Below are positions 38,392 to 41,053 of a DNA stretch of 64,000 bases, one piece after another (the stretch's first letter is position 1; each line of letters opens with the position of its first letter). A model generated the notes under the pieces. It was not told the DNA's origin, searched no databases, and was given only the letters and a program-made list of their open reading frames with translations. A program made the position numbers and the translations under genes. The DNA is taken from positions 1,036,001 through 1,100,000 of the forward strand of contig NZ_AP027142.1 in assembly GCF_027925385.1 (NCBI RefSeq). The letters run 5' to 3'. The stretch is from Methylocystis iwaonis (GTDB taxonomy: Bacteria; Pseudomonadota; Alphaproteobacteria; Rhizobiales; Beijerinckiaceae).

Positions 38392-38727
38392 TTATTTTGC
38401 TTGCTCGAGATGCATCAGCGCTTCTTCCGCGTGTTTGGTCGCGGCTTCAGCTTTTTTCTCCTTGCCCGTTTCGATGGCCTTTTCGAGATGGGTGATGCCC
38501 TGCTTGATATGCGGGTTCGCCTTTTCCTTCTCGGCCGCTTCGGCGTGTTTCAGCGCTTGTTCGGCGTGGGTGGCGAGCACGTCGCCATGACCCTGCTTGC
38601 CGTGATCGATCGCCTGCTTGGTATGCGCGATCGCTTCGGAAAGATGGTTTTCCGCAAAGGCCAGTCGTGGCGCGAAGGCCAGTCCGAGCGAAAGGGAAAG
38701 CGCAAGAGCGAAAACTCTGCGGTTCAT
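38392..38727 (-). CDS. SmbP-like small metal-binding periplasmic protein
   Basis: A 111-aa product with a signal peptide (about residues 1-25, ending AFA) and a helical, His- and Lys-rich mature part in which short His-containing heptad-like segments recur (HTKQAIDHGKQGH, ATHAEQALKHAEAAEK, ATKHAEEALMHLEQ). This pattern matches SmbP of Nitrosomonas, a copper/nickel-binding protein. Metal binding here is inference from that pattern. Stands alone. Confidence 0.78.
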   Translation of the reverse strand: MNRRVFALALSLSLGLAFAPRLAFAENHLSEAIAHTKQAIDHGKQGHGDVLATHAEQALKHAEAAEKEKANPHIKQGITHLEKAIETGKEKKAEAATKHAEEALMHLEQAK

Positions 38728-39215: not shown

Positions 39216-39616
39216 GGCCGTTCCTCTCCGTTTCGATGCGAGCCGGCGGCTTTACCGTGGCCGCTCTCGCGAGCGGCGCCCTTTGCATATATTCATCCTG
39301 CCCAATTTAGACCGGTCTCGAGGCAACAATTTTGCGAGGCGCTCGAGCGCCCTGCGCCTGGGAGAGGCCGCGGGCGGCCTCTGCCGAGCTTATTGCACGG
39401 CATGGCTGTCTAGAAATCAAGTCATATCCATTCAATCACTTATTGCTGAAGTATATAGTCAAGCTGTTACAGTATATATTTATGAGAAAGAAGTTTGATT
39501 CTTGCACTATGTATTAACTCTATAATAAACTCGCAAAATAGTCAACTTTTTGCCAACATTGTGCCATGAGATCAATGTAATACTTAATTGTTGTAATTAT
39601 TAGGAGTAAAAATGAC
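39216..39616. other. AT-rich control region upstream of the acyltransferase/oxidase pair
   Basis: From about 39410 to 39610 the base composition drops far below the surroundings. It holds a perfect -10 box (TATAAT, 39521-39526), the octamer AGTATATA repeated directly 21 bp apart (39450 and 39471), and a sigma-54-like site on the minus strand (39551-39566). No convincing gene is seen, so it is read as a regulated promoter region, possibly foreign DNA. Confidence 0.65.
39521..39526 (+). promoter_or_regulatory. Candidate -10 box for the acyltransferase/oxidase operon
   Basis: TATAAT, with no good -35 at 17 bp; the upstream octamer repeats suggest an activator could help. It would give a leader of about 85-90 bases. 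Confidence 0.4.
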
Positions 39617-40309
39617 ATGATAGCCAGCGACATTCTACCAACATTACGCGTTGTTTCGCTTCCCGGCGCCAACCCGTCGTCTGCTCAATTGAGCGACTAC
39701 AAAAGCGCTTACGCCATGTGGAAGATGGTCTGGTCGGAGACATTCAGGGAGCTGGATGGGCTCGACAAAATGTTCTCGGACGATTTCGCCCGGCAAGACG
39801 AAATCCTCTGCGTCTTTCGCGGCCCCGTATGTTTGGCGCTGGGCCTGATGCGCTGGCGGGATATCGAGCTCCCGAGCGTGCGCGAGGATTCCTATTTTCA
39901 GATGTGGCCCGCGGAATCCATCGATGGGCTGCGCGCCAATGGCAAAGACATCATCATCTGCTGCAATTTGACAATCCATCCGATGGCGCGGAGCAACGCC
40001 CTCGGGCTGCCGATGAAAGACGTCATGATGGGCCTTCTCATCCAGCGCTTTTTGGAGTCGGGCGCCGACGCCATGACGGGCGCCATGCGCGCTGATCGCG
40101 GCATGCACAAGACGACCTATCGACTCGGCGCGACGCCTCTGGCGACCGGTCTGGTCCACCACAATTCGCCGGTCGATCTCGTCGCCTTCTTTCCGCAAAA
40201 CATGACCGGCGGGGAAGCGGAGGTTGCCCGCGCAGTACGGTACCTCTGGGGCGTCAAGCGGCAACATCCCATCCAAAGGGCTCGATACAAGGGGGCGAAA
40301 AATGCGTGA
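39617..40309 (+). CDS. GNAT-like N-acyltransferase of unknown specificity
   Basis: A 230-aa protein with the outline of a GNAT acyltransferase: a strand ending in IICCNLTIHP (112-122), then ARSNALGLPMKDVMMGLLI (124-142), where the acyl-CoA/ACP-phosphate loop and following helix would be, and GADAMTGAMRADRGMHK (149-165). I would place it near the acyl-ACP-using FeeM/autoinducer-synthase-like group by general form, but no named homologue is claimed. An SD (TAGGAG) lies 10 bases before the ATG. Its 3' end overlaps the di-iron oxidase gene by 8 bp. Confidence 0.7.
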   Translation: MIASDILPTLRVVSLPGANPSSAQLSDYKSAYAMWKMVWSETFRELDGLDKMFSDDFARQDEILCVFRGPVCLALGLMRWRDIELPSVREDSYFQMWPAESIDGLRANGKDIIICCNLTIHPMARSNALGLPMKDVMMGLLIQRFLESGADAMTGAMRADRGMHKTTYRLGATPLATGLVHHNSPVDLVAFFPQNMTGGEAEVARAVRYLWGVKRQHPIQRARYKGAKNA

Positions 40310-40931
40310 AGCGCTCGATGTTCTTCTCAACAACGTGAAAAAAGAAATGTCGGCGTGCCCTTGGGAAAATCCCTACGCCTACGCCGATTTTCTCGCGCAG
40401 ACCTATTACTACGTCTGCCACTCGACGCGGCTTTTGGGTCTTGCGGCGGGCCTTTGCCGGGTCGACAGAGACCTGCTTCACCGCCGCTTCGTTCAGCATA
40501 TCGGCGAGGAAAAACTGCATGAGCGCCTGGCGTTGAACGATCTGCGCGGCCTGGGGTCGAAGCTCGAGGATTTTCCCGAACATTCCATAACAAAGGCGTT
40601 TTACGAGTCGCAATACTACAAGATCGAGCGCCTCGATCCGACCGCGCTCTTTGGTTACATCCTTCTCCTGGAAGGAGTCGCGGTATCCGTTTGCCCTGAC
40701 ATCTATCAGCGCGTCGAGCGCGCGCACGGCAAGCGCTGCGCCAACTTCTTGAGGGTTCATGTCGAGGAGGACGTCGATCATCTGCCGAAAGCTTTTGCCC
40801 AGATCGAAAGCCTGTCGGCGGGCCAGAAGAGCGACATTCTGGTAAACATGGCCCAGACCGCCGATCTTTACTGCCAGATCATCTCGCAGGCGGCTCGAGG
40901 CCGGAGCGTCGAGCGCGCGAGGGCGGCTTAG
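40302..40931 (+). CDS. Haem-oxygenase-like di-iron oxidase (iron-containing redox enzyme family)
   Basis: A 209-aa helical protein with the metal ligands of haem-oxygenase-like di-iron oxidases (HDOs): HIGEEKLHE supplies Glu70 and His73 (His66 is nearby), Glu124 lies in ILLLEG, and HVEEDVDH gives His153, Asp157 and His160. Such enzymes activate oxygen for unusual N- or C-oxidations in small-molecule synthesis. The ATG at 40302 has AGGGGG upstream; the open frame from 40224 lies within the preceding gene. The 8-bp overlap shows tight coupling with the acyltransferase, whose product is the likely substrate (inference). Confidence 0.82.
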   Translation: MREALDVLLNNVKKEMSACPWENPYAYADFLAQTYYYVCHSTRLLGLAAGLCRVDRDLLHRRFVQHIGEEKLHERLALNDLRGLGSKLEDFPEHSITKAFYESQYYKIERLDPTALFGYILLLEGVAVSVCPDIYQRVERAHGKRCANFLRVHVEEDVDHLPKAFAQIESLSAGQKSDILVNMAQTADLYCQIISQAARGRSVERARAA

Positions 40932-41053
40932 CAATATCGACAAATGCGACGCGCGCGCCCGACGTGCGCGTCGTGAACGCGGCTTCACCGGAGCCCTTGT
41001 CCCCGACCGGCGCGCTTCGCATATAGTGATGGAGAAATTTTGCGGAGCGGCGG

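Follow-up and report, generated by a model that had tools for sequence, protein, structure and literature searches.

Two overlapping genes in a 64-kb stretch of the genome of Methylocystis iwaonis (G000:C1:1036001-1100000; this whole stretch is referred to as the window) encode, on the forward strand, a GNAT-like acyltransferase and a haem-oxygenase-like di-iron oxidase (HDO). We see about an even chance that they form a two-gene metabolite cassette, in which an N-acyl amino-acid-like product would be made, and then oxidised, by short-lived enzymes. What the sequences themselves show is that the genes are paired, coupled by 8 bp and under selection, that the metal ligands are complete, that the model of the acyltransferase is GNAT-like and that the pair is present at two genomic sites. 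The original prediction, made from the letters of the window, had described the two genes as a candidate small-molecule pathway behind an AT-rich promoter; its observation was partly confirmed and its interpretation is partly supported.

The acyltransferase gene (39617..40309, forward strand) encodes 230 amino acids ending in GAKNA and belongs to a family without a Pfam or NCBIfam model, and the HDO gene (40302..40931, forward strand) encodes 209 amino acids, counted from its ATG, with a PF14518 domain and the end RARAA. Both reading frames, together with their predicted overlap of 8 bp (ATGCGTGA; 40302..40309, forward strand), were borne out, and the same overlap fits in five of five carrier genomes; in one of these (G011), the HDO start was picked by similarity, an earlier in-frame ATG being also present there. 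Translational coupling of the two genes through this overlap is likely. A 99% identical protein is encoded at locus L002 in Methylocystis sp. Sn-Cys. Both genes are real and under purifying selection, with a pairwise dN/dS well below 1 for the acyltransferase (0.12-0.32) as well as for the HDO (0.13-0.31; four comparisons each, with dS ~1 in the most distant pair).

The class of HDO enzymes is large, but validation is described for only some twelve of them (PMC13108848). The window HDO matches PF14518 above the curated cut-off (45.9 versus 28.9 bits, E=7.1e-12), and its AlphaFold model is all-helical (pLDDT 93.6, pTM 0.89). Residues E70, H73, E124, H153, D157 and H160, constituting the 3H/3C ligands according to the definition given in PMC13108848, do not vary in any of the 29 relatives aligned, so that the full candidate ligand set proposed beforehand holds. 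The 3H/3C set, the all-helical model and PF14518 are shared with the known HDOs UndA, AetD, HrmI, PolF and MboA; however, the protein has no close sequence kin among solved structures, the best profile match being 3dde (E=7e-11), which is titled a domain of unknown function. In the five 3H/3C HDOs solved with their substrate, the substrate itself is reported to give ligands to Fe1 (PMC13108848). An N-acyl amino acid whose carboxylate is free would fit this.

For the acyltransferase, neither Pfam nor NCBIfam gave a match; among 98 relatives, Pfam returned 15 families, each in one or two members (best E=0.0076), and a GNAT model was touched by one of the 98 (E=0.037). Searching solved structures by sequence yielded non-significant matches only (E 0.83 and 2). 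The AlphaFold model, built with 98 sequences, has a pLDDT of 91.8 and a pTM of 0.89, with residues 226-230 below 50, and its order of strands and helices can be read as a GNAT-like topology; on this reading, the predicted model is in line with the GNAT assignment of the original prediction. In single-pair comparisons by hhalign, the profile of the family aligned with a FeeM-like set of ten proteins at E=1.4e-5 (156 columns, colinear, probability 80%), with ten LuxI proteins at E=5.3e-4 (163 columns, probability 31%), with twelve PF13444 proteins at E=0.005 (59 columns, probability 7%), and with the HDO control at E=0.66 (1 column, probability 0.1%). Because these E values refer to single pairs and come with the probabilities stated, kinship of the family to FeeM and, more weakly, to LuxI is likely, but remote. 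A profile check against both families had been suggested in advance; remote kinship was recovered by profile comparison, whereas a direct match to either family's model was not. The family has its own set of invariant residues (W35, W39, D91, W97, G109, R125, R158, and G171).

Two known systems are, thus, of interest for comparison. The FeeM/NasY N-acyl amino acid synthases (PF21926) resemble the family in the colinear 156-column alignment, and also in that FeeM takes the place of the GNAT beside a close HDO in one genome (G127); they differ in the oxidising partner, which here is an HDO and not a nitroreductase. A nitroreductase, proposed to desaturate the product, is described beside N-acyl amino acid synthases in clusters of the stieleriacine type (PMC12479983). 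With LuxI (PF00765), the weaker, but long profile alignment is shared, whereas no LuxR is common to the two sites of the pair. The host genome also has an ordinary LuxI synthase (G000:C1:1824242-1824733; PF00765, 2.7e-35).

That the substrate would be acylated is supported chiefly by the apparent linkage of this HDO group to two kinds of acyl-transferring GNAT. In G127, a true FeeM (PF21926, 1.3e-29) is immediately followed by the close HDO (3.3e-72); around G127, close HDOs were found in G127 itself alone, corresponding to one of 74 and one of 78 genomes. In the open-access literature searched, no report was found joining heme-oxygenase-like enzymes to an N-acyl amino acid synthase or to LuxI and a biosynthetic gene cluster, and none contained all five terms on Methylocystis and quorum sensing that were looked for. 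More distant HDOs occur in the order AMP-ligase, HDO, short-chain dehydrogenase at L024 and several of the loci L026-L050, which was confirmed by Pfam for L024.

The first search returned 18 relatives of the acyltransferase, and a profile search, in which the 8000 best candidates were scored, returned 103; the named sources among these 103 are six Bdellovibrionota, two Methylosinus and one "Proteobacteria bacterium". Overall, the acyltransferase family occurs in named Bdellovibrionota (predators), methanotrophs and metagenome contigs, and it is rare, being present in 3 of 61 related genomes, in 5 of 397 genomes of the taxonomic family and, across a phylum sample of 398, in the genome of the window alone. 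In all five carriers from the family search, an HDO follows directly behind the GNAT, so that the neighbourhood survey bears out the conservation of the pair. In four Methylocystis loci, the pair is flanked by DUF3775 and alanine dehydrogenase. In a survey covering 30 of 35 DUF3775 loci, the pair was present in 4, the two flanking genes were directly adjacent in 24, and alanine dehydrogenase was not nearby in 2. In the fifth carrier, which belongs to another genus, the pair comes after lpxB (PF02684, 2.7e-83), and of ten window genes queried, the GNAT and the HDO alone match this second site. The pair either moves as a two-gene unit or has been inherited and lost many times; since it also sits at a second site in another genus, movement is favoured. 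The transfer suggested earlier is, hence, supported by the empty sites together with the second site. A gene for a small metal-binding protein (SMBP, PF16785, 6.9e-28) lies at 38392-38727 of the window and accompanies DUF3775 in 28 of the 30 loci.

Beyond these carriers, the Bdellovibrio plasmid pBdHM1 encodes a remote acyltransferase (24.9 bits against the family profile), followed after 9 bp by an HDO (34% identical). Six more pairs were inferred from identical longest-contig sizes of GNAT and HDO sources. In this matching of the 103 GNATs with 120 listed of 406 HDOs, nine coincidences were obtained, compared to 0.7 (maximum 3) expected by chance; one of them was G011, and two (P0173/P0047 and P0191/P0074) were dropped, as their sources differ. 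The gene order in Bdellovibrionota, thus, rests on one plasmid and matched source contigs. Plasmids queried with the HDO gave eight records, one of them in Bdellovibrio, while the same query found none in phages and viral contigs, and a query with the GNAT relative P0018 gave no match in plasmids. As noted at L171 48557-49726, pBdHM1, of which 100 of 161 kb were viewed, further bears annotations for a ClpX of its own and for RecA, ribonucleotide reductase and dUTPase, in the manner of a phage-plasmid.

Ala at the C-terminus is common in members of both families. Among the 103 GNAT relatives, a terminal Ala is present in 87 and Ala-Ala or Val-Ala in 71, the latter being a known variant of the ssrA-type end. 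For comparison, 52 of 292 open reading frames (ORFs) of the window's genome end in Ala and 13 in Ala-Ala or Val-Ala, the respective counts for pBdHM1 being 15 and 8 of 95; this background is crude, as it consists of longest ORFs (292 in 20 stretches of the former and 95 in 100 kb of the latter) rather than curated genes, and most GNAT relatives come from other lineages. The tails persist among relatives of below 50% identity (16 of 27 with Ala-Ala or Val-Ala, 22 of 27 with Ala) and when proteins shorter than 210 amino acids are left out (68 and 84 of 98, respectively). Among the paired HDOs, 11 of 12 end in Ala-Ala, including that of the window (RAA). These twelve were identified by DNA (G000, G588, G002, G011, G489, and HM001) or by source match (P0022, P0029, P0032, P0035, P0123, and P0108), with G000 and G588 being nearly identical and, hence, not independent. 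The HDOs of the two dropped coincidences lack the Ala-Ala end, that of the FeeM-paired HDO (G127) is Ala-Ile, and of the 120 listed HDOs (of 406) generally, 44 end in Ala-Ala. To this enrichment of Ala tails in the GNAT family and the paired HDOs we refer as a new observation.

A terminal Ala-Ala is described as the main determinant of the ssrA degron for ClpXP (PMC7652416), and the Ala ends of both families may, by their sequence, represent built-in ClpXP-type C-degrons. They would differ from ssrA-type degrons in that the tail is encoded in the gene and not added by tmRNA, and in the basic residue at position -4, which is present in 68 of 103 GNAT relatives. In these genomes, Ala-Ala ends also occur in 3 of 11 LuxI-like and 6 of 16 PF13444 proteins (L118-L149), several of which are close orthologues. 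Encoded Ala tails may, thus, extend beyond the present GNAT family and be common among acyl-transferring GNATs.

Taken as a pathway, the acyltransferase would use a fatty acyl chain to acylate an amino acid, or a comparable small molecule, at its amine, while the carboxylate would stay free. The HDO would then bind the acylated product at Fe1 and oxidise it by desaturation, hydroxylation or oxidative decarboxylation, and ClpXP-type tails would keep both enzymes short-lived, so that the product would be made only in bursts. In its most far-reaching form, namely, that the acyltransferases are an unnamed, signal-synthase-like family producing an N-acyl compound, that the HDO oxidises it to a new lipid class, and that ssrA-like tails gate the pathway by proteolysis, we regard this proposal as doubtful, albeit conceivable. 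The metallophore-like product also considered in the original prediction found no support in the analysis.

Several points weigh against the proposed cassette. Concerning the acyltransferase, the FeeM model (PF21926) matches neither the window protein nor any of 98 relatives (E up to 0.1), and the LuxI model (PF00765) has no match to the window protein or its relatives. The Glu and Arg that are invariant in ten LuxI proteins (set A6; E101 and R104 of the first row) align with Ile and Asn, the Arg position being occupied by Asn in the window protein and by Gln in the family consensus. The FeeM side of the HDO link amounts to one clear case: a close HDO is nearby in one of 25 FeeM loci (L098, which is G127; ~1.5 kb of flank each), and the case of G432 is weak, as its FeeM (2.4e-9) and a more distant HDO are neighbours in convergent orientation only. 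Gene neighbours are known for a minority of the 406 HDO relatives. Likewise, HrmI and CADD are described as 3H/3C HDOs that react with O2 without needing a substrate (PMC13108848). Among the ten window genes queried, none but the pair itself is common to both sites, and it is, consequently, not accompanied by any receptor, exporter or regulator. Regarding the tails, one carrier HDO (G489) ends in Pro-Ala, and the GNATs of the window and the four sister carriers end only in Asn-Ala or His-Ala, which is why the degron-like tail in the window appears clear for the HDO (RAA) alone and weaker for the GNAT (KNA). Finally, no biochemical data were found on any family member.

Other explanations of the pair have to be considered on the same evidence. 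The HDO and a compound made by the GNAT might protect against oxidative or drying stress instead of serving in signalling, as has been proposed for the HDO-domain protein DtpC of Acinetobacter, for which substitutions in the predicted HDO domain are reported to disrupt protection and whose gene lies in an operon with katE (PMC13232832). A stress response would also suit burst-type expression; however, the pair has no third gene in its unit at either site, and the terms "acyltransferase" and "GNAT" are absent from the main text of the DtpC paper (PMC13232832), so that protection of this kind seems unlikely to us. Slimmer are the prospects of a pathway in which a protein or peptide, possibly the partner of the GNAT, is acylated or acetylated by the latter and modified by the HDO, and in which the tails are substrates or docking motifs and not degrons. 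The occurrence of Ala tails in both families, conserved against a variable background, would be in line with this, as would the roles of HDOs in ribosomal peptide modification (PMC13108848). Yet, the tails look like ssrA-type ends, for which Ala-Ala is the main ClpXP determinant (PMC7652416); the patchy HDO tail among the listed relatives fits a regulatory add-on, without proving one; and no peptide gene lies between the GNAT and HDO genes, which overlap.

That a GNAT and an unrelated oxidase met by chance, or that the pair is a decaying foreign fragment, could be argued from its patchy presence in the family genomes and the phylum sample, from the low-GC leader, and from a GC3 below that of most, but not all, neighbours. 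However, gene order and the overlap of 8 bp are identical at two sites in two genera, a remote pair exists in Bdellovibrio, and dN/dS is well below 1; the repeated pairing argues strongly against coincidence or decay, which we consider highly improbable.

The DNA surrounding the pair was inspected for signals of its expression. The leader upstream of the GNAT (39410..39616, forward strand; 29% GC) is the presumed promoter region and includes the lowest GC of the 64 kb in 200-bp windows (28% at 39414, compared to a mean of 64%). Over the 200 bp before the GNAT start, GC amounts to 29, 29, 36.5 and 38% in the four Methylocystis carriers and to 52.5% in the fifth carrier. Aligning five upstream regions revealed no conserved promoter motif, and base-for-base alignment of the leader fails beyond the nearest strain; between 39200 and 41100, one promoter-like match was found on the opposite strand, which is at chance level (1 versus 1.1 expected). 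The low-GC stretch of the AT-rich promoter proposed originally, thus, stands as the GC minimum of the window. The repeated octamers, considered as regulatory sites, were rejected: two repeated 8-mers (AGTATATA and ATAGTCAA) compare with 0.85 expected from dinucleotide shuffles (P=0.23). The AT-rich stretch may be of foreign origin, or it may act as a regulatory leader whose composition has been retained. At 39602-39620, an AGGAG box is followed by a two-codon frame of the form NTG-xxx-TGA overlapping the GNAT start in the window (as ATG ACA TGA), in G002 and in G011, which is possibly a start-stop reinitiation element, or chance. Directly after the HDO, a strong hairpin (40946..40974, forward strand; 12-pair stem by folding) possibly marks where the transcription unit ends; in G002 and G011, the HDO is likewise followed by stems, of 12 and 10 pairs and made of differing bases, and no terminator with a T-run was found.

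For the study of HDOs, the pair described here is of use as a minimal system of two genes, in which the partner of the oxidase is defined and the list of candidate substrates is short. Furthermore, the tails of both families suggest that proteolysis may directly control a small-molecule pathway.
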